From a virus: DNA of 28,682 bases. The translations under genes were made by a program, and so were the position numbers. Shown one piece after another: positions 2,024 to 22,631 of this stretch (position 1 is its first letter; each line of letters opens with the position of its first letter). The stretch lies in IMG/VR virus record IMGVR_UViG_3300033141_002704, positions 1 through 28,682 of that record; one strand, given 5' to 3'. A model generated the notes under the pieces. The model ran no database searches and was not told the DNA's origin. It saw only the letters and a list, made by a program, of their open reading frames with translations.

Positions 2024-2505
2024 ATACATGTCCTCATGGCCTACCTAGTCCTCACTGGGACAAAGCATGGCTCTACCGTGAATATGTATGTAAGAATCGT
2101 TCTATTACCTCGATTGCCCGAACGGTACATCGTCATCGCAGTGCTGTTGGATATTTTCTGACCAAGTTCAACATTGCCCGACATCCATCTTTGCGGTATT
2201 CCCTGAACCCACATTTCAAGTACAGAAGTGGTACTGACAGGACAAGAGGGAACAACAAAAAGAACAAAGGGGATAAATCTGACAGGTCTAACAGTTCAGA
2301 CCCTCCGCATGGGACTATCCACTCTACCTATTCATCCCATTCACCCAACGCAGGTATGCGGACGTGCCTGAAATGTCACCGGCAATTCTTCTCAGAGGAC
2401 AAGACGAGGCTTAGAATATGTGATTGGTGCAAGAACAATTCAGAAGAGTGGTGTATGTCAGGTTGTTTGGAGGAAAGGAATTTAGTGTTGTGTGAAGTGT
2501 TGTGA
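2014..2505 (+). CDS. HTH plus zinc-ribbon DNA-binding protein (163 aa)
   Basis: Residues about 18-53 (WLYREYVCKNRSITSIARTV onward to FNI) form a helix-turn-helix of the kind found in homing-endonuclease and phage regulator N-termini (short helix, SITSIARTV, HRHRSAVGYFLTKF recognition helix). The middle is a Ser/Asn/Lys-rich linker. The C-terminal part RTCLKCHRQFFSEDKTRLRI followed by CDWC is a CxxC-CxxC zinc ribbon as seen in phage late regulators. No nuclease motif is visible, so I favour a transcription regulator over an endonuclease. Starts inside the MazG-like gene (10-nt overlap) and ends 24 nt into the convergent DUF2723 C-half gene. Confidence 0.6.
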   Translation: MSVNTCPHGLPSPHWDKAWLYREYVCKNRSITSIARTVHRHRSAVGYFLTKFNIARHPSLRYSLNPHFKYRSGTDRTRGNNKKNKGDKSDRSNSSDPPHGTIHSTYSSHSPNAGMRTCLKCHRQFFSEDKTRLRICDWCKNNSEEWCMSGCLEERNLVLCEVL

Positions 2506-3558
2506 GGAGGGAGAGGGTTGGTAGAACGGTGTAGAGTGTGTTGATGTTTCCCCCTGGTTGTTTTCTTCACTCTCTACCCCTTCTCCACTCTTTCTCTTCC
2601 CACTATCCATCGCCTGTTTCACTTGTGCTTCTCTCAAATATGCTTTGTACTTTCTCAACATTCTGCCTCCGCTCTGCATCATGTCTGCTGCTTTGTTGAA
2701 ACACTTTGCCGCTTTTCCCCATTCTTTTTCATTGAGCCAGCACAATCCTATATTGTACAGCGGTTCAGGGTTCAGAGGGTCAACAACTCTGATGAACCCG
2801 TAGTATTCCCTGGCGAGACCGAACAATCGGAGCAACACACAGAAGTTCCCGTAGGATTTAAGCAGTTCTGACAACAACCATGCTTCCCCGTCGTCTTGAT
2901 ACTTTGTTCTATTCCTCACACATATGCCGGTCAGATTGTCGAATATTGCACGCTGTACAGACTGAATAGCTTTAGGGTAATTCACTACAGGGTCTATGGT
3001 CATCTTTCTGGGCAACACCCTGAACCACATACCCACAGGGATAAGTTTAGTTCCTGTAGCCTTGATGTACTGTATCATTTCTTCTGTCTTTCCTTTCTCT
3101 ATGTAGTTTCTTACTATACTTTGGTAGAACGTTGGCTCGATGTAGAACGTATGGTAAGGTACATTCTCGTATATGCATGTGTCGAAAAACCTGTTGTCAT
3201 GCACATCAGGGAAGGTAGTGAGCAGGGGATACTTACCCTTGTACACAGGGGAGAATATATCTGTTCCGTAGTACAGTATATCAGGAATGTTGAATATGGT
3301 AATGTCTGGTCGCACTCCCCCGCATCGCTGTAGACAAGATACGCCAAAGTAGAACATCTTGGCATAGATGACAGAACCATAGGGAAAGTTATTGAACTGG
3401 TGGGTATAGAACTCATCAGGGACAAAGAAGTCTGAACGGTTGGAATGAGTACAGCCGGTATAGACAGCAGAGAACAGGTGGGATAGAGTAAGGATAACAT
3501 AGAGTAGGGTTACAACATAGAAAACTGCTTGTCTACTACTTTCTCTGAGGTTTTGCAT
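2482..3558 (-). CDS. C-terminal half of a DUF2723 protein: membrane anchor, extracytoplasmic domain, TPR (358 aa)
   Basis: One hydrophobic helix near the N-terminus (AVFYVVTLLYVILTLSHLF) is followed by a soluble domain that matches the part of DUF2723 proteins after the membrane block: a segment ending PYGSVIYAK, then GVRPDITIFNIPDILYYG. In full-length relatives this is the periplasmic region with the invariant RPDV-like motif. A single TPR follows (PEPLYNIGLCWLNEKEWGKA to NKAADMM), then a Ser/Gln-rich tail. The likely start is ATG 3558; an in-frame GTG lies at 3579. It overlaps the N-terminal-half gene by 23 nt in another frame, so the two halves act together as a split protein or represent a frameshifted single gene. 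Confidence 0.65.
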   Translation of the reverse strand: MQNLRESSRQAVFYVVTLLYVILTLSHLFSAVYTGCTHSNRSDFFVPDEFYTHQFNNFPYGSVIYAKMFYFGVSCLQRCGGVRPDITIFNIPDILYYGTDIFSPVYKGKYPLLTTFPDVHDNRFFDTCIYENVPYHTFYIEPTFYQSIVRNYIEKGKTEEMIQYIKATGTKLIPVGMWFRVLPRKMTIDPVVNYPKAIQSVQRAIFDNLTGICVRNRTKYQDDGEAWLLSELLKSYGNFCVLLRLFGLAREYYGFIRVVDPLNPEPLYNIGLCWLNEKEWGKAAKCFNKAADMMQSGGRMLRKYKAYLREAQVKQAMDSGKRKSGEGVESEENNQGETSTHSTPFYQPSPSSQHFTQH

Positions 3559-4606
3559 TGTGGTGTTCTCTTGTCCCACTCCACACTTTCCCTACCTGCC
3601 ACACTCCCACACTCAACAACACACACCAAAACATATATGACGGAACATAATGCACTGGTTCTTTCCATGAGACTATATAGAACCACCATTCACTGAAGAA
3701 ATAAAAGAACAGCAGGACACAGAGCTTAGTCTGTTCAGTCATCATCCAGTAGAACCCAACTACAGTCAACCCCATTCCTATTGCTCCAAAATCTTCATAG
3801 AGCAGGTCAAAGTAGTGATGAATTTGTCGTCCCAACTCTCCCACTCCTCTATACCTCATACGTATCCCTTTGTCCTTCCTGTCTGTTACGTGATAGAATA
3901 TATTGTGTACAGTCTCAGGATTACCCCAGTCGTAATAAGGGTTGGTGTATGACCGGACAGGTAGGTAGAAGTAGATAGAACCACCGAGGGAGAGTAACAG
4001 GAGATAGACTATGAGAGTTTTCCTGGGAGTGTTACGTTGTCTGTATGTATAGATGAATAGTAGCGTAGCAAACAGGTAGAACCCTGTTGTTACGTGTACT
4101 CCTACAGTAAGGGCGAGAATGAACAGGGCAAGGCAGGCGTAACGTACTTCCTTTTTCCTCCACCACAACACCAAACACAATCCTGCCGCCACAATCCCTG
4201 CATACTGCAATGGATATACTTCTGTTACTGTCACTCCCTTCCAGTAATCAGGGCTTGCTCCAAGAAACACACAGGATACAACAGCAGGGAGTGTGGGAGC
4301 AGTACAACCCATTCCTTTTAACACGTACCATAAGAGCAGATACAGCAACCCTATCCCTACTCCACCCGATACCACAGACAACATAACCACTCTCATCTCT
4401 ATCGTTCCCAGTGGTATAAAAGTGAATATCTTCCCCACGCAAGCGTACAGGGGAGACCCCGCAGGATGTGCTATGCCCAGTTCGTTTGCTACTACTACAA
4501 ATTCAGGAGCGTCACGCCAGTCCATAGAGGGGGAGAAGGTAAAGAGGTAAAGGATAATGAAGAGTAGAATAAGCAGAGGGAACACAACAACTCTATTCGT
4601 TCTCAT
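3536..4606 (-). CDS. N-terminal half of a DUF2723 (PMT-like) membrane glycosyltransferase (356 aa)
   Basis: About nine membrane helices. Family motifs: MDWRDAPEFVVVANELGIAH just before PAGSPLY at residues about 28-54 (acidic pair in the first outer loop as in protein O-mannosyltransferases and GT-C enzymes), VTEVYPLQYAG near residue 125, and YLPVRSYTNPYYDWGNPETV near 215, all recognised DUF2723 features. GT-C enzymes transfer sugars from lipid carriers to acceptors on the outer face of the membrane. A phage copy would modify host surface or exported phage proteins. The ATG used (4606) is the last of three ATGs carried by a 17-bp triplication that separates it from the upstream stop. Rare cargo for a phage; probably host-derived. 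Confidence 0.75.
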   Translation of the reverse strand: MRTNRVVVFPLLILLFIILYLFTFSPSMDWRDAPEFVVVANELGIAHPAGSPLYACVGKIFTFIPLGTIEMRVVMLSVVSGGVGIGLLYLLLWYVLKGMGCTAPTLPAVVSCVFLGASPDYWKGVTVTEVYPLQYAGIVAAGLCLVLWWRKKEVRYACLALFILALTVGVHVTTGFYLFATLLFIYTYRQRNTPRKTLIVYLLLLSLGGSIYFYLPVRSYTNPYYDWGNPETVHNIFYHVTDRKDKGIRMRYRGVGELGRQIHHYFDLLYEDFGAIGMGLTVVGFYWMMTEQTKLCVLLFFYFFSEWWFYIVSWKEPVHYVPSYMFWCVLLSVGVWQVGKVWSGTREHHNAKPQRK

Positions 4607-10663: not shown

Positions 10664-10942
10664 TTATTCAGGGTCAAATACTTCACTTTCAGGACGGTAA
10701 ACTTCAACCTCTACCGTCCCACTTTCATCGAGGGTTACCAATACGTAACCCTCTTCTTCGAACTGAGGAGCGTTGTAACTATTCCTCAGTGTGAACATTA
10801 CCTTGCAACCCAAGTACTTCCTCAAGTGAGGAAGAGGATTGCTCCCGAAACTGTAACTAAGTTGTACCCATTGGCATAACTCATCCCAAGTCAACCCTTG
10901 TGAGTTGACCTTTTCCTTTAAATCTTCTCTAAAATTATTCAT
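10664..10942 (-). CDS. Hypothetical protein (92 aa), first gene of the leftward operon
   Basis: MNNFREDLKEKVNSQGLTWD begins a helical N-terminus, with ELCQWVQLSYSFGSNPLPHL in the middle and a beta/acidic C-terminus (GYVLVTLDESGTVEVEVYRP). No domain recognised. The start is fixed by AAAGGAG 8 nt upstream of ATG 10942; the frame is open to 10981, but without an RBS. Preceded by a candidate promoter (11031-11058) with a leader of about 80 nt and followed by the intrinsic terminator at 10555-10596, so it may also be made as a monocistronic message. Such first genes of early operons are often host-takeover proteins, which is inference. Confidence 0.6.
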   Translation of the reverse strand: MNNFREDLKEKVNSQGLTWDELCQWVQLSYSFGSNPLPHLRKYLGCKVMFTLRNSYNAPQFEEEGYVLVTLDESGTVEVEVYRPESEVFDPE

Positions 10943-11030
10943 GTTGTTTCTCCTTTCTGACCGCTTAAGCCAGAAAGCCAATAAGACAGGTCAAGGTACG
11001 ATCCCTTCGCTGCCTCTATTTCAAAGAACT

Positions 11031-11058
11031 GTTATAGTTATCGCAAACTTCATGCCAA
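11031..11058 (-). promoter_or_regulatory. Candidate sigma70 promoter for the leftward operon
   Basis: On the minus strand TTGGCA (plus 11053-11058), a 16-bp spacer, and TATAAC (plus 11031-11036). The predicted start is near 11024, about 80 nt before the first leftward gene at 10942. It is the best-looking promoter match I found in the leftward control region. Confidence 0.4.
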
Positions 11059-11289
11059 CCTTCCCTCTCTCCCCAAAATAATTCCTTAACCCCTTGATAT
11101 CTTTCCTCTTCTTGTCCCCTTCCTGGTAACTCTCCCTCTCTGCTTCCTCTCCCCTGAATGTACAATTCTCGACTCCCTCTCTCCGCTATTTCTCCCCACA
11201 ACCCTTGTGTGCCAACGTCTACAAGCTACTGTATCAATCTCGACCCTACTGTCCAGATATTAGACAGTTGATATGTATGAAAATCGAAT

Positions 11290-11401
11290 GTGTGACTTTT
11301 ATATCACACCTATTTCAACCCAAATCGACGAAATTGCTTGGTATCAAAGGGATTGCGTGGGGTGTGACCAAAAATGCACAGGTGTGATTTTCTTGTCACA
11401 T
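11290..11401 (+). promoter_or_regulatory. Cluster of three TGTGA-N8-TCACA operator-like palindromes
   Basis: Site 1, 11291-11308, TGTGActtttataTCACA (arms extend to 6 bp). Site 2, 11363-11380, TGTGAccaaaaatGCACA (one mismatch). Site 3, 11383-11400, TGTGAttttcttgTCACA. Sites 2 and 3 are exactly 20 bp apart start to start, on the same helix face. The cluster ends about 33 bp upstream of the strong rightward promoter and lies between the leftward and rightward promoters, as a phage repressor or activator operator would. Confidence 0.65.
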
Positions 11402-11433
11402 GTTATGCAGAAAAGCGAATATGTTGGATGTGT

Positions 11434-11463
11434 TTGACAACGAATGCGCCTGTATGGTATAGT
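11434..11463 (+). promoter_or_regulatory. Strong extended sigma70 promoter, rightward
   Basis: TTGACA at 11434-11439, an 18-bp spacer, TATAGT at 11458-11463, with TG one base before the -10 box (extended -10). Start expected near 11470. It lies directly after the palindrome cluster and reads towards the gene at 11591 and the non-coding control region. Confidence 0.6.
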
Positions 11464-11590
11464 AGGGAAGAGTAATGAGGTAGAAAAACAGGGAATGAAA
11501 TGGAACGGAACGTGCAAAATATAGCTCGCTTCCCCTGTGTTTATGGGCGAGTAAAGAAAGAATGAAAGACTTCCAGGAACACGCACAGAA

Positions 11591-11809
11591 ATGGCGAAAC
11601 GCAAGCACAACAAAGAGAAACCCTTTGTAATTACAGGAGAGTTTCACTTTATCCGTCCGTCAAAGAAAGGGACAACATTTCGGTATACCACTTCGAATCC
11701 TGGCGGTATGATAGGGACAATATACATTCCTTCTGACGTTCCTCTCCCTGACGAAATCCATTTGGTACGTGAGCCCGGGCACGAGGAGAAATTCGGACTG
11801 GGAGACTAA
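11591..11809 (+). CDS. Hypothetical protein (72 aa)
   Basis: MAKRKHNKEKPFVITGEFHF, then IRPSKKGTTFRYTTSNPGG, IGTIYIPSDVPLPDEIHLV and a charged end. The F.F.rpTk.t.rY......igtlYi.k..lp..p..i.l pattern is one I associate with short phage proteins of unknown function and beta structure. AGGAAC upstream is a weak RBS. First rightward gene after the strong promoter and operator cluster, separated from the late genes by 700 bp of non-coding DNA. A lone gene under a strong controlled promoter could encode a regulator or a single-strand-binding-like protein, but this is not shown. Confidence 0.6.
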   Translation: MAKRKHNKEKPFVITGEFHFIRPSKKGTTFRYTTSNPGGMIGTIYIPSDVPLPDEIHLVREPGHEEKFGLGD

Positions 11810-12062
11810 GACCGCCACACCTTGTTTTCCTATTCCACCTCATCTCATCACAACACAACACCACAACATATAGTATCTCCCTGTTCTATTCTCCAGTGCC
11901 ACTTTCCTCAACCCAGTCATACCAACGGTTTTGCTCGTAAGTTTACATAATGTATATTATCAAGCATGCGCAATCTTCCCACAACCCCACTCCAGTCGTG
12001 CTACCCGGACCGTACTGAGCCGCTCTCTCTTCTCTCTCTGTAGGGTATCCTCTCCCTCTCTA

Positions 12063-12093
12063 GGGTAGGGGTAGGGGTAGGGGGTCAACCCCC
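12063..12093 (+). repeat. G-quadruplex motif with TA loops, plus GGGGG-TCAA-CCCCC hairpin
   Basis: Runs of 3, 4, 4 and 5 G separated only by TA (12063-12084) satisfy the four-G-run rule with 2-nt loops and resemble telomeric DNA. The last G run can instead pair with CCCCC at 12089-12093 across a TCAA loop, so quadruplex and hairpin are mutually exclusive. Confidence 0.7.
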
Positions 12094-12260
12094 ATTTGCT
12101 TAGTTCCTTGCATGGTGTGTTATTATATATATATCCCCTCCCCCTCTCTGTGATAAAAAAATAATATCCTGCCTTACCCCCTGTCCTGTCCTCCCTTACC
12201 CCCCCGCCCCCTCTCTCTGTTTTCCCTCTCTGCGACAAAAAATTTTGTGTAGTGTGTAGT

Positions 12261-12300
12261 GTTGTGTTATGTTGTATTACGTTGTGTTATGTTGTATTAC
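12261..12300. repeat. 20-bp exact tandem repeat in a TG-rich array
   Basis: GTTGTGTTATGTTGTATTAC occurs twice head to tail (12261-12280, 12281-12300). The array continues to about 12360 with a repeated GTGTCCTGTAGT word. It is bordered by A/T palindromes on both sides. Confidence 0.85.
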
Positions 12301-12462
12301 ACCGTGTCCTGTAGTGTTGTGTGTCCTGTAGTATAGTGTGTTGTGCTGTGTAGTATCCTCTCTGGCTAAAAAATTTTTTACATAAAATCTTCCCCCTGTT
12401 TTAATTTCCCTGCCATTTCCCCTTTTATTTCAACAACTTACCTATGTTTCCAACACCCACTA

Positions 12463-12494
12463 TGTTGCAGAATTGCAACACTGGACTGTAATAT
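12463..12494 (+). promoter_or_regulatory. Inverted repeat overlapping a candidate late promoter
   Basis: TGTTGCA-GAAT-TGCAACA at 12463-12480 is a perfect 7-bp inverted repeat, the size of a dimeric-repressor site. TTGCAG (12465-12470) and TAATAT (12489-12494) with an 18-bp spacer could be a promoter for the packaging genes, with the palindrome covering the -35 box. Confidence 0.4.
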
Positions 12495-12522
12495 GATATG
12501 TAGAGACAGGTAAATGCAGTAG

Positions 12523-12915
12523 GTGGACGCAAGATGTGAACACAACACGGGGGTGCACACAGTGGCGGATATCAGGGTGAAGGACATAGAGGTATGGGAA
12601 CAGTTGTTTGAAGTGCCGCTCCATCCTTTGTTACTGTCCCTGTTCAAGTGGATAGCGGAAAGATATACCCCTGTAGTGATTACCTGCGGTTACCTGCACA
12701 AGAAGTTCTGGTCAGTTCATGGAACTTACCCTCTGCGTGCCCTTGACATTCGTTCATGGGTTTACCCCTTTCCTCAGACAGTCTGTAATAACATTAATGC
12801 CGCATGGGAGTACGACCACACCAGACCCAACCTCAAGTGTGCTGTATACCACAATGTTGGGCACGGTCTGCATATTCATCTGCAAGTACATGACAACACT
12901 AAGAAGAGAGAGTAA
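12523..12915 (+). CDS. M15/Hedgehog-fold zinc peptidase-like protein (130 aa)
   Basis: VVITCGYLHKKFWSVHGTYP, LRALDIRSW and GLHIHLQV reproduce the order of zinc ligands in M15-type peptidases (H......A.D.R ... H.H): His in VHG, Asp in ALDIR, and the H-x-H pair near the end. M15 enzymes cut peptidoglycan peptides and serve phages as endolysins or virion lysins; position directly before terS also fits a phage lysis or head-assembly gene. It is short and lacks a wall-binding domain or signal. Start uncertain: GTG 12523 is the longest; in-frame GTGs (for example in GVHTVADIRV) would remove about a dozen residues. Confidence 0.5.
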   Translation: MDARCEHNTGVHTVADIRVKDIEVWEQLFEVPLHPLLLSLFKWIAERYTPVVITCGYLHKKFWSVHGTYPLRALDIRSWVYPFPQTVCNNINAAWEYDHTRPNLKCAVYHNVGHGLHIHLQVHDNTKKRE

Positions 12916-12918
12916 ACA

Positions 12919-13533
12919 TTGGCGACTAAGGTTACTGCAACAAAAAAGAAAACCACAAGGAAGGCCGCAAGTAAACCCACAAGGAAACCCATAGCAAAAA
13001 AGTCTACGGCTACTAAAGCCAAAAAGAATACTTCATCCTCCTCGACCTCCCTCACCTCTACTACCCCAAGAGAGCTGCTGAGATTTGCCCGGATTGAGGC
13101 GGCTCTCTCTGCATTCAAAGAAGATAACCCGTTTAAAGAGATAGCACGTACACTTGGGATAGAATGGGATGAGTTCAAGTCTATCATGGCGGCAAACCCC
13201 AAGTTACAGGAACATGTGGAAGATGGACTGTTCGATATGTCATATATCTCTGCTATACAGGGGTTGACTAAGCTCGCTAAGGGGTACAAGAAAGAACAAA
13301 AGGTAATACGGTGGAGAAAGAATGGGGGACCGCAATACCCAAGCAGGCTTACTCTTACTGATGTAGCACCTGACATTACAGCGTGTGTGTTGTTAATCGC
13401 TATGGTGTCACCTGAAAAACTGTCTGAGGTCAAATCAGTGGATGGACTTGGAGGGGTGGCGCTGAAACAGTTAATCAAAGACATAGACGGATACACAAAG
13501 GATATTACGGCAAATGCCAAGGTCATCGAATAG
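12919..13533 (+). CDS. terS: Terminase small subunit-like protein (204 aa)
   Basis: Residues 1-55 are a Lys/Ala/Thr/Ser-rich basic tail (MATKVTATKKKTTRK and similar). Then an HTH-like domain (NPFKEIARTLGIEWDEFKSI), a helical oligomerisation part (LFDMSYISAIQGLTKLAKGY) and LTDVAPDITACVLLIAMVSP, which resembles the end of many TerS (PD..A...~L..r.pe). TerS recognises the packaging site and regulates TerL. Start is TTG at 12919 with AGAGAGAG upstream. It overlaps terL by 20 nt. The assignment rests on domain order plus position directly before terL; the long frame on the opposite strand (12876-13526) is a shadow. Confidence 0.65.
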   Translation: MATKVTATKKKTTRKAASKPTRKPIAKKSTATKAKKNTSSSSTSLTSTTPRELLRFARIEAALSAFKEDNPFKEIARTLGIEWDEFKSIMAANPKLQEHVEDGLFDMSYISAIQGLTKLAKGYKKEQKVIRWRKNGGPQYPSRLTLTDVAPDITACVLLIAMVSPEKLSEVKSVDGLGGVALKQLIKDIDGYTKDITANAKVIE

Positions 13534-20111: not shown

Positions 20112-22631
20112 ATGGCACAAAATTTAACAACTACGACGGATGTAGACCCCGGCGTAGCAACATATTATGACAGAATTTTATTGACCAGGGCATTACCATA
20201 CCTGGTACATCTCAAGTGGGCACAGGAGAAAACACTGGACAAGAAATCCGGCAATACAGTCAAGTTTAGACGGTATTCTGCTCTGTCTAAGGCTACAACT
20301 CCTCTCTCTGAGGGTGTAACTCCTCCGGGACAGTTGTTAGCTAAGACTGACTTGACTTGTAAGGTGAGCCAATACGGTAAACAAATAATTGCCGTAGTAA
20401 AACCCAACTATATGCTGGAAACCCCTAAAGCTCTTGTGACTATCTAGGTGAAACTACAAGAGATGAATACAATGGGCAATCAGCAGGTAACCGAATATGA
20501 CGTTGCATGGTTAGCCGGTATCTATGACGGGGAAGGCTGGTTTTCGTTGAAACATAAACATACTAACCGTGACGGGTGGTCTGGTGTAAACCTGTCAATC
20601 GGTATAGTAAATACGGATTCAGCTATTATAAACCGTGTAGACTGGCTTTTGGATGGGATTGAAGTTCCGCATGTTATCCGAGAAAAAGTACATGACAAGT
20701 GGAAAACGAGGTATGACATTGAAGTAAAGAAGTTTTCTCATGCAAAAGTGTTGATATCTCGTTTGTTGCCATATCTTATAGGTAAACGAGGACAAGCAGA
20801 ATTGTTATTACGTTTCATCAACCGGAGATTAAATTTACCTAAACACAGCAAGTACAAGAAAGAAGATATAGCTATCATGCAGGAATACAAGACCAAATAT
20901 GCACGAACAAAGGGAACCTCAACGACTATACGTAGGGAGGCAGGATGTTCTGTCTAAGATATAGTCTGAACTTACAGGAAACTGCAAGAGGAGAGATGAA
21001 GAGCTCTCCCGCTGCAATAGCAGTCATAAAGTAACAGAATGGATTTTGTCCACTACACCGACATAGTTGACCTCACGGTCGAAGATGCAGTGCTTACGGA
21101 AATTCACGAGTTGCAGGGTAGAGATATGTTTGCCCTGGATAAACCCATTAAATTCGGTGAAAACCCTTATTGGGGCAATACCGAGCCGAGCCAGCAGGCA
21201 GGCGTAGAGACTAAAAGGGCTTATGCACATTAATAGAAAAGAGTACAAAGGAAAGATTATTGGAATGGTTTTGGGTGATGGATATTTGTCAAAGAACAGA
21301 AAAAACTCTCACCTCAAGATAGAACATTCCGTGAAGCAAAAAGACTATTTTGACCTCAAGGTAGACGTTTTGAAAACATTAACTTCTGTAAACATTTTTC
21401 CAACATTTTCCCATATAGATGGTAAGGATTTTCCCCAATGGGTGTGTGAGACCAAGTCTCATCCTATCTACACAGAATTGAGGGACAGATTCTATTACCA
21501 CGGCAGAAAAACCGTTGACAGTCATTTAATGAAACTTTTAAGCGAAGAAGGGCTTGCTTATTGGTATTTGGATGACGGATACAGTTATGGAGAAAAAACA
21601 AGACAGACTGCTTATTTATGTACAGAATGTTTTAATAAAGCAGAACAGGAGTTGATGAATTATTGGCTTGTAAAGAGATTTGGGCTTCATTTCAGGCCAA
21701 ATAAGAGCAGAAACAGTTATCGGCTAAGATTGTTGGTGAAAGATACAGACAAACTGGTTGATATAGTCAAACCTTATACTCCCAAAAACATGTTGTATAA
21801 AATAGACTTTGACAGAGTATGCAAAGGAACAGCTTTATATACGTGTTCTTATTGCGGGAAAAAGTTCTACGACGGAATAGGAAAGAACAGGAAGTATTGT
21901 TCTAACAAATGTGCACAGAAAGTCCTTTGGAAAACTGGGCGGAGCAACTTGTATCAGAATTATAAGCTCCGAAGATATAGTCCGAACTCTATAGCAATAT
22001 AGAGGATATATTGGAAACTTTATATCATAACGAAATGGAACAGTTCGGTCAGACAATAGACGAAGTAGTCCGTGATATCCTTGCCGCCTGTGCTTCCACC
22101 ACTAGTGCATCACACGGAAGCAACGGAAGTAGTCCGACTGAGATAACCAAGGAAGACATAGACACAGTGGTAATGACTCTGTTGGGTAACAATGCCCGTA
22201 TGATGACCCCAATGATAAAGGCTGGAACAGGTGTAGGTACTGCACCGGTAAGGCGTGCATATTGGGGAACTATAGATGCAGACTTAATTGATGACCTTGA
22301 AGAGGTTACAGGATTCAAGGAAGTATCACAGTACGCTGGACATCAGGGCGTGGAAGAAATGGAATGGGGCAGCACTGGGAATGTACGCTGGTGTCATACC
22401 ACAGAAGGGTATGTATCGTCAAGTACCTATTACCTCCCTGTTTTCGGTAAAAACGCCTATGGTGTTGTACGGCTTACAGGTTCAACATTGAAATCCATCG
22501 TGAAGGGCTTTGGTTCAGGCGGGACTTCTGACCCGATAAACCAGAGAGGTACTGTAGGATGGAAAACAATGTTTACCGCAAGAATACTGAATGACAATTT
22601 TATGAACATTTTGCTCGTTACACACAGCTAA
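20112..22631 (+). CDS. Major capsid protein, N4 gp56 family, join of three exons (312 aa)
   Basis: Exons: 20112-20378 (89 codons), 21042-21119 (26 codons), 22038-22631 (197 codons plus stop), all in one frame when the two introns are removed. Around the first junction the product reads KVSQYG then DFVHYTDIVDL; around the second ELQG then EQFGQTIDEVVRDIL. This is the standard N4 gp56-family text (VSQYGd.v.ytDivdlt.eDpvl.e....g.q...t.d.vv.d.l). The rest includes LLGNNARMMTPMIKAGTGVG and TGFKEVSQYAGHQ. HK97-fold shell protein. Unspliced, exon 1 would add 22 foreign residues and stop at 20447, so splicing is needed for a capsid. Confidence 0.92.
20379..21041 (+). ncRNA. Group I intron 1 in the capsid gene (663 nt), with HEG
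   Basis: Exon 1 ends in U (20378) and the intron ends in G (21041). P1: UACGGU (20373-20378) pairs with GCCGUA (20391-20396), six pairs with the conserved U.G at the splice site and a 12-nt loop. P10: UU and AA before the guide (20387-20390) pair with GAUU starting exon 2. Core: AUGCUGGAAACCCCUAAAG at 20412-20430, GGGCAAUCAGCAG at 20474-20486. P7: GACUAU (20924-20929) with AUAGUC (20961-20966) in the typical AAGAUAUAGUCUGAAC. Resembles subgroup IA introns of phages. Confidence 0.9.
20463..20957 (+). CDS. LAGLIDADG homing endonuclease, single-motif type, in intron 1 (164 aa)
   Basis: YDVAWLAGIYDGEGWFSL is a LAGLIDADG motif with the catalytic Asp/Glu end (residues about 13-30), followed by VNLSIGIVNTDSAIINRVDW, WKTRYDIEVKKFSHAKVLIS and LLPYLIGKRGQAELLLRFI. 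One motif means it acts as a homodimer. It cuts the intron-free capsid allele so that repair copies the intron. The start is inside the intron core (MNTMGNQQ is encoded by the conserved GGGCAAUCAGCAG), and the 3' end runs through the P7 5' strand. Exon 1 read-through stops 15 nt before this ATG. An upstream GTG at 20448 is possible. Confidence 0.85.
   Translation: MNTMGNQQVTEYDVAWLAGIYDGEGWFSLKHKHTNRDGWSGVNLSIGIVNTDSAIINRVDWLLDGIEVPHVIREKVHDKWKTRYDIEVKKFSHAKVLISRLLPYLIGKRGQAELLLRFINRRLNLPKHSKYKKEDIAIMQEYKTKYARTKGTSTTIRREAGCSV
21120..22037 (+). ncRNA. Group I intron 2 in the capsid gene (918 nt), with HEG
   Basis: Exon 2 ends in U (21119) and the intron ends in G (22037). P1: CAGGGU (21114-21119) pairs with GCCCUG (21132-21137), six pairs with U.G at the splice site and, as in intron 1, a 12-nt loop. 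P10: UGUUU (21127-21131) pairs with GAACA starting exon 3, five pairs. Core: CGGUGAAAACCC (21155-21166) and GGGGCAAUACCGAGCC (21172-21187). P7: GACUA (21209-21213) with UAGUC (21978-21982) in GAAGAUAUAGUCCGAAC. The endonuclease gene sits between the two P7 strands, unlike intron 1. Confidence 0.9.
21223..22002 (+). CDS. LAGLIDADG homing endonuclease, two-motif type with zinc finger, in intron 2 (259 aa)
   Basis: Two LAGLIDADG-like motifs, KIIGMVLGDGYLS (residues about 11-23) and GLAYWYLDDGYS (about 110-121), as in the monomeric LAGLIDADG_2 family. Each gives one catalytic acid. The C-terminus has a treble-clef-like zinc finger, TCSYCGKKFYDG then RKYCSNKCAQK, seen in some phage homing enzymes as an extra DNA-binding part. 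Unrelated to the intron 1 enzyme in layout. The ATG has AAAAGGG upstream and overlaps the stop of exon 2 read-through (21231-21233). AT-rich compared with the capsid exons, in line with separate origin. Confidence 0.9.
   Translation: MHINRKEYKGKIIGMVLGDGYLSKNRKNSHLKIEHSVKQKDYFDLKVDVLKTLTSVNIFPTFSHIDGKDFPQWVCETKSHPIYTELRDRFYYHGRKTVDSHLMKLLSEEGLAYWYLDDGYSYGEKTRQTAYLCTECFNKAEQELMNYWLVKRFGLHFRPNKSRNSYRLRLLVKDTDKLVDIVKPYTPKNMLYKIDFDRVCKGTALYTCSYCGKKFYDGIGKNRKYCSNKCAQKVLWKTGRSNLYQNYKLRRYSPNSIAI

Follow-up and report, generated by a model that had tools for sequence, protein, structure and literature searches.

An N4-gp56-type major capsid gene split by two group I introns, probably of different lineages, in an uncultured phage, and the recurrence of introns in related capsid genes

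The window analysed here is the whole 28,682-base stretch of an IMG/VR virus record from an uncultured phage. Its major capsid gene is clustered with genes for a terminase, a P22-like portal and a tail protein and consists of three exons separated by two inserts, each carrying an open reading frame for a LAGLIDADG homing endonuclease (HEG1 and HEG2):

20112..20378, plus strand: capsid exon 1, 267 nt, codons 1-89, ending in Gln-Tyr-Gly at UACGGU^ (reading frame, profile match, spliced aligner)
20379..21041, plus strand: group I intron 1, 663 nt, phase 0 (reading frame, aligner, covariance model R1, RF00028 at 29.1 bits)
20448..20957, plus strand: HEG1, single-motif LAGLIDADG reading frame, 169 aa from GTG (PF14528, 24.7 bits, over the cut-off)
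21042..21119, plus strand: capsid exon 2, 78 nt, 26 codons, ending at CAGGGU^ (reading frame, spliced aligner)
21120..22037, plus strand: group I intron 2, 918 nt, phase 0 (reading frame, aligner, covariance model R2 on both halves)
21223..22002, plus strand: HEG2, two-motif I-SceI-like LAGLIDADG reading frame, 259 aa (PF03161, 114.8 bits, over the cut-off)
22038..22631, plus strand: capsid exon 3, 594 nt, codons 116-312 (reading frame, profile match, spliced aligner)

Removal of 20379-21041 and 21120-22037 leaves a stop-free frame of 312 codons in which the exons are joined without insertions or deletions. These boundaries, proposed in the initial annotation, proved exact to the base, being returned unchanged by a profile-guided spliced aligner that was blind to them and that required a U before the intron, a terminal intron G and guide pairing of at least four base pairs. 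The 312-residue product matched TIGR04387 (N4-gp56 family major capsid protein) over positions 1-322 of the 324 in the profile with 259.5 bits, the curated cut-off being 60 bits, in agreement with the capsid identity suggested initially; the two long pieces taken singly scored 85.3 and 136.3 bits. The nearest relatives of this capsid are 50-63% identical to it, and no close relative was found among genome contigs. The expectation that capsid homologues should lack sequence corresponding to the inserts was borne out by 87 relatives from viral contigs and GenBank phages, all of which are uninterrupted at both sites. Tyr-Gly at site 1 is invariant in 87 of these 87 relatives and the site ranks 30th among 306 seven-residue windows by conservation, whereas site 2 is of average conservation (155th of 306), so the statement that both introns had entered the best conserved part of the gene is true of site 1 only. 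That capsid production would depend fully on splicing, as was also proposed, can be said less firmly; it follows from the reading frames. An intein reading of both inserts was ruled out because they contain in-frame stops and shift the frame, and a frameshift or sequencing error was ruled out because the inserts, 663 and 918 nt long, have the complete anatomy of introns.

The paired elements of the two introns were assigned as follows:

20391..20396, plus strand: intron 1 guide GCCGUA, forming P1 with exon positions 20373-20378 (6 bp including U.G, 12-nt loop)
20387-20390, plus strand: intron 1 P10, AAUU pairing with GAUU at 21042-21045 (4 bp)
20403..20408, plus strand: intron 1 P3 5' strand CCCAAC, pairing with GUAGGG at 20932-20937 (one A.A mismatch)
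20413..20417, plus strand: intron 1 P4 UGCUG, pairing with CAGCA at 20481-20485 (alignment of related introns)
20924..20928, plus strand: intron 1 P7 5' strand GACUA, pairing with UAGUC at 20962-20966 (alignment of related introns)
21132..21137, plus strand: intron 2 guide GCCCUG, forming P1 with exon positions 21114-21119 (6 bp, 12-nt loop)
21127-21131, plus strand: intron 2 P10, UGUUU pairing with GAACA at 22038-22042 (5 bp)
21139..21146, plus strand: intron 2 P3 5' strand AUAAACCC, pairing with GGGCUUAU at 21217-21224 (one mismatch; sequence and alignment)
21154..21158, plus strand: intron 2 P4 UCGGU, pairing with ACCGA at 21180-21184 (RF00028 match and alignment)
21209..21213, plus strand: intron 2 P7 5' strand GACUA, pairing with UAGUC at 21978-21982 (RF00028 match and alignment)

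In both introns a U ends the 5' exon and a G ends the intron, P1 being UACGGU/GCCGUA in one and CAGGGU/GCCCUG in the other. With both strands of the window counted, the only two copies of the P7 strand AAGATATAGTC are those at 20956 and 21972. All parts of the junction anatomy described initially (exon U and intron G, six-pair P1 with its U.G wobble, 12-nt loop, P10 and P7) were found in both. A hand model built on the alignment contains a P3-P4-P6-P7 core with the P3/P7 pseudoknot in each intron, P3 carrying one mismatch in either case; covariation of P3 is seen in a set of 19 related introns that belong to the same P7 family.

The Rfam group I search, suggested as a check, succeeded in part: RF00028 matched within both introns (29.1, 24.5 and 23.5 bits; E 7.5e-5 to 3.4e-3), but at its gathering score of 50 it matched nowhere in the window, the best scores being 24-29 bits. 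The gathering score is a detection threshold and not a defining property of group I introns, and the low scores probably arise because an endonuclease reading frame splits each core. For this reason two covariance models were made that contain no window sequence and draw on other phages alone: R1 on nine compact introns in the capsid genes of relatives, and R2 on introns that have the second P4 type. R1 matched 20895-21041 (E 1.3e-13), the end of the match coinciding with the predicted 3' splice site of intron 1, and R2 matched intron 2 twice, at 21141-21310 (E 2.9e-14) and 21900-22025 (E 2.1e-8); neither model matched any of seven intron-free relatives. These independent models, together with the introns of relatives, uphold the assignment of two group I introns to the capsid gene.

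The compact introns of relatives are 212-254 nt long (L346, L362, L381, L391, L405, L430 and L463) and have P7 GACU/AGUC in place of GAUAUAGUC; examples are:

L362, 120-350: compact intron, endonuclease-free
L362, 507-718: compact intron, endonuclease-free
L381, 4237-4472: compact intron, endonuclease-free
L346, 3991-4220: compact intron, endonuclease-free
L430, 4382-4604, minus strand: compact intron, endonuclease-free

In nine of them the P3/P7 pseudoknot, P4 and P9 covary; 98% of the cells are paired, and changes on both sides affect 13 of the 22 pairs, a value as high being reached in 0 of 500 shuffles. At the Rfam gathering score no group I match was obtained in the compact-intron loci scanned, and at a permissive setting, applied to two loci, these introns likewise went undetected.

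The endonucleases are of different LAGLIDADG types (PF14528 for HEG1, PF03161 for HEG2) and sit at different positions of the intron fold, both of which had been noticed from the sequence. The HEG1 domain, with the motif LAGIYDGEG, lies in the P6 loop of intron 1, and translation likely starts at the ATG at 20463. It weakly resembles I-MsoI (E 9e-5) and I-AniI type LAGLIDADG endonucleases; it is related to HEGs in capsid introns of L398, L446, L472 and L483, and tblastn against GenBank phages gave no match. HEG2, with the motifs IIGMVLGDG and YWYLDDG, lies in the P8 region of intron 2, between P3 and the 3' P7 strand, and is I-SceI-like across 190 residues (E ~1e-10; 4e-11 to 1e-10 against I-SceI structures, 1e-15 against 6x1j), differing from I-SceI by an extra Cys-rich C-terminus. 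This Cys-rich stretch (window 21790-21950, CSYCGKKF...KYCSNKCA) has a weak DUF6076 match, and a stretch of the same type is present in relatives' enzymes at sites 33 and 85.

In the numbering of the capsid profile, window site 1 is site 85 (Tyr-Gly^) and window site 2 is site 111. The related loci are all metagenome contigs, some of them truncated; among GenBank phages searched for split relatives, none was interrupted at the window sites. Run over 167 distinct capsid genes, the aligner placed no intron in 137 and made four evidently false calls (three in-frame open inserts and one 150-nt call), and these (L006, L007, L009 and L039) were discounted as either protein insertions in frame or minimal-length noise. 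A search with exon 3 alone, a query that creates no bias for or against introns lying upstream, gave 80 loci. Of these, 78 were new, and introns are present in eight of the new ones (L346, L362, L378, L381, L382, L391, L398 and L405). About one in ten of the nearest sampled capsid genes is split, at no fewer than eight sites in all, the majority being intron-free. Several genes are split more than once: L362 has three introns (sites 33, 85 and 101), L391 also three (sites 85, 97 and 101, with exons of 38 and 12 nt) and L430 four (sites 17, 33, 64 and 85, with a clean 303-aa product). The 12-nt exon of L391 (positions 3966-3977) is flanked by introns on both sides. In capsid genes of more distantly related phages, scans for the P7 motif revealed further introns, located at other sites; in a distant capsid lineage (L208, L177 and L126) introns lie at about site 120, and the L208 and L177 genes apparently have two introns each.

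The locus L483 has introns at both window sites, again with a 78-nt exon between them. Its site-2 intron is HEG-free and scores 65.4 bits with RF00028 (E 8.6e-16), above the gathering score; the terminal G is absent from the assembled sequence, perhaps through an assembly slip. Judged by further RF00028 and R2 matches and by the reading frame, this gene probably has five introns:

L483, reverse-complement positions 10,730-13,426, minus strand: capsid gene with introns after Lys-Thr-Tyr near codon 18 and at sites 25, 85, 111 and about 176 (the contig ends within this last one)

Site 1 is occupied in nine distinct capsid genes: those of the window, L362 and L391, and those of L428, L430, L446, L463, L472 and L483, which came from a scan with the intron 1 guide; because most of the cases were retrieved by means of that guide, this count should not be read as a frequency. 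The guide GCCGUA stands at this same site in all of the scanned cases and in L391. At least three core types occur here, with either type of endonuclease or none: HEG1-like enzymes are found in the window, L446, L472 and L483 and I-SceI-like ones in L391, L428 and L463, and L362 and L430 have no enzyme here. The I-SceI-like family is also found at site 33 (L378, L382, L430 and L465) and at the window's site 111, and the HEG1-like family also at sites 64 and 43. In L409 and L465 the site-1 guide stands at a second TACGGT^GAT near the capsid start codon (MxxTTYG^D), and in L452 the intron 1 guide is likewise at a TACGGT near the start codon, as if the intron 1 family retargets any TACGGT^GAT.

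The capsid genes most closely related to that of the window have no introns, and a tree of 151 capsids requires eight changes to account for the eight carriers of site-1 introns; this favours repeated gain or loss of site-1 introns over simple inheritance. Core type and enzyme type are largely coupled, and the site is only loosely coupled to both; since cores and enzymes largely travel together, the pattern looks like several intron lineages, each able to retarget by a change of its guide.

The most probable reading, to which we assign about 95%, is that an N4-gp56-type capsid gene is split by two group I introns of different lineages, which are spliced out and spread by homing, and that this gene is a recurrent target. 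From the anatomy and distribution observed we infer splicing, enzyme activity and homing as the driver of spread. Each intron would fold in the transcript with its guide pairing to the last six exon bases as P1; after cleavage behind the U, the exons would be joined at the terminal G, the 3' exon being positioned by P10, and the capsid frame would be restored. Each LAGLIDADG endonuclease most likely cuts capsid genes that have no intron at its site, whereupon the intron would be copied in. On this reading, introns of several core types have entered the capsid gene many times, at no fewer than eight sites and repeatedly at the Tyr-Gly codon pair of intron 1.

Two independent invasions of the gene had been argued initially from the endonucleases. 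Different endonucleases alone prove little, because site 1 elsewhere holds a HEG1-like enzyme, a HEG2-like enzyme or none, and it is the core types that now support separate entries: UGCUG/CAGCA with the enzyme in L6 in intron 1 and UCGGU/ACCGA with the enzyme near P8 in intron 2, both types being found at several other sites of the capsid gene in other phages. Duplication of one ancestral intron within the gene, followed by an exchange of endonucleases, would account for the common U^G target pattern (GGU^GA), the equal P1 loop length and the shared P7 motif, and for the one stretch, just 17 bases, that blastn finds in common between the introns; it is nevertheless unlikely, given that P4, the J6/7 sequences and the enzyme positions differ and that each core type with its own enzyme at other capsid sites fits separate mobile lineages. 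Far less credible still is a decaying or mis-assembled capsid pseudogene with unspliced endonuclease inserts in a phage that uses another capsid protein. The gene is known from a single metagenome contig, but its intact exons give a continuous frame with no indels when joined, exon 3 is full length and 44-59% identical to relatives, the same sites and splice signals recur in unrelated contigs, and the rest of the contig contains no second capsid match.

Two further possibilities concern what the introns do. Exon 2, with 78 nt in frame, might sometimes be skipped to give a capsid variant shorter by 26 residues, as exon skipping is reported between adjacent group I introns in Twort orf142 and in phage SIOphi (PMC11878797). 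We regard this as quite improbable here: the guides pair with the wrong exon end over just three base pairs before a mismatch, and the product would probably not assemble, because the conserved region after Tyr-Gly would be lost. That the introns are kept for a benefit to the phage, as a late-gene timing switch or as a weapon against intron-free co-infecting relatives, and not only as selfish elements, is a tentative idea that we hold doubtful but deserving of more weight than either skipping or duplication. Both roles have been discussed for phage introns (PMC11878797), and a weapon would be well served by settling repeatedly in a gene that is essential and very conserved; at the same time most relatives are intron-free, and the present results fit plain homing equally well. 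Beyond the window itself, the two-lineage homing reading has a wider form that we consider reasonably likely: the N4-gp56-type capsid gene would be a general group I hotspot in uncultured phages, with up to five introns per gene, exons down to 12 nt, and unrelated cores with interchangeable LAGLIDADG enzymes converging on the same codons, chiefly Tyr-Gly, including a compact family that Rfam does not recognise.

Capsid introns as a kind are already known from Tuc2009, LittleE and crAss-like phages. A five-fragment major capsid gene with group I introns has been described in the crAss-like Zeta group (Yutin et al. 2021, PMC7886860); according to the accessible text of that report, several endonuclease-bearing group I introns in one capsid gene were there, as here, predicted from metagenome genomes, in another phage order and another capsid family, and that text reports no re-occupation of one codon by different intron types. 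RT-PCR and N-terminal sequencing have demonstrated that the capsid intron of mycobacteriophage LittleE is spliced (Pope et al. 2013, PMC3706429), and a capsid intron of lactococcal phage Tuc2009 is cited in that paper. These two share with the window an intron in the major capsid gene, with U before it and G at its end, but each has a single intron in an unrelated capsid gene, and for the window splicing is a prediction; LittleE also has a LAGLIDADG reading frame, but on the opposite strand. Three introns in the tail tube gene orf142 of Twort and two or three in polymerase and terminase genes of Bastillevirinae (PMC11878797) are like the window in combining several group I introns per phage gene with short in-frame exons, but other genes are concerned, and exon skipping is known there. 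The open-licence literature searched yielded neither a paper on introns in capsid genes of the N4-gp56 family nor a mention of a recurrent hotspot in them; what is new is a capsid family in which introns recur, with many sites occupied, several introns in single genes and one codon pair used repeatedly.

Of the late products of a phage, the capsid protein is usually the most abundant, so several obligatory splicing steps in its mRNA would be a strong natural test of phage self-splicing efficiency. The catalogue of occupied and empty sites, with different introns and enzymes at one codon, makes the homing cycle of gain, enzyme exchange and loss testable by comparison. The introns of Bastillevirinae were found by the authors in nucleotide and DNA-metabolism genes only (PMC11878797), and the capsid introns described here speak against nucleotide-metabolism genes being the main home of phage introns. 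Moreover, gene callers can be expected to give such capsid genes as fragments, and capsid-based surveys of viral contigs would therefore miss or split them.

The two-piece capsid matches in the human gut records MT836218 and MT837590 (L006 and L007) were rejected as introns and are in-frame protein insertions instead; the extra in-frame segment of about 230 nt follows profile position 241 and may be a surface domain. In the window itself, a TPR protein and a TMEM260-like O-mannosyltransferase (PF11028), encoded at 2482-3579 and 3536-4606 on the minus strand, adjoin phage genes, and this pair is possibly either host flank or a phage glycosylation pair.
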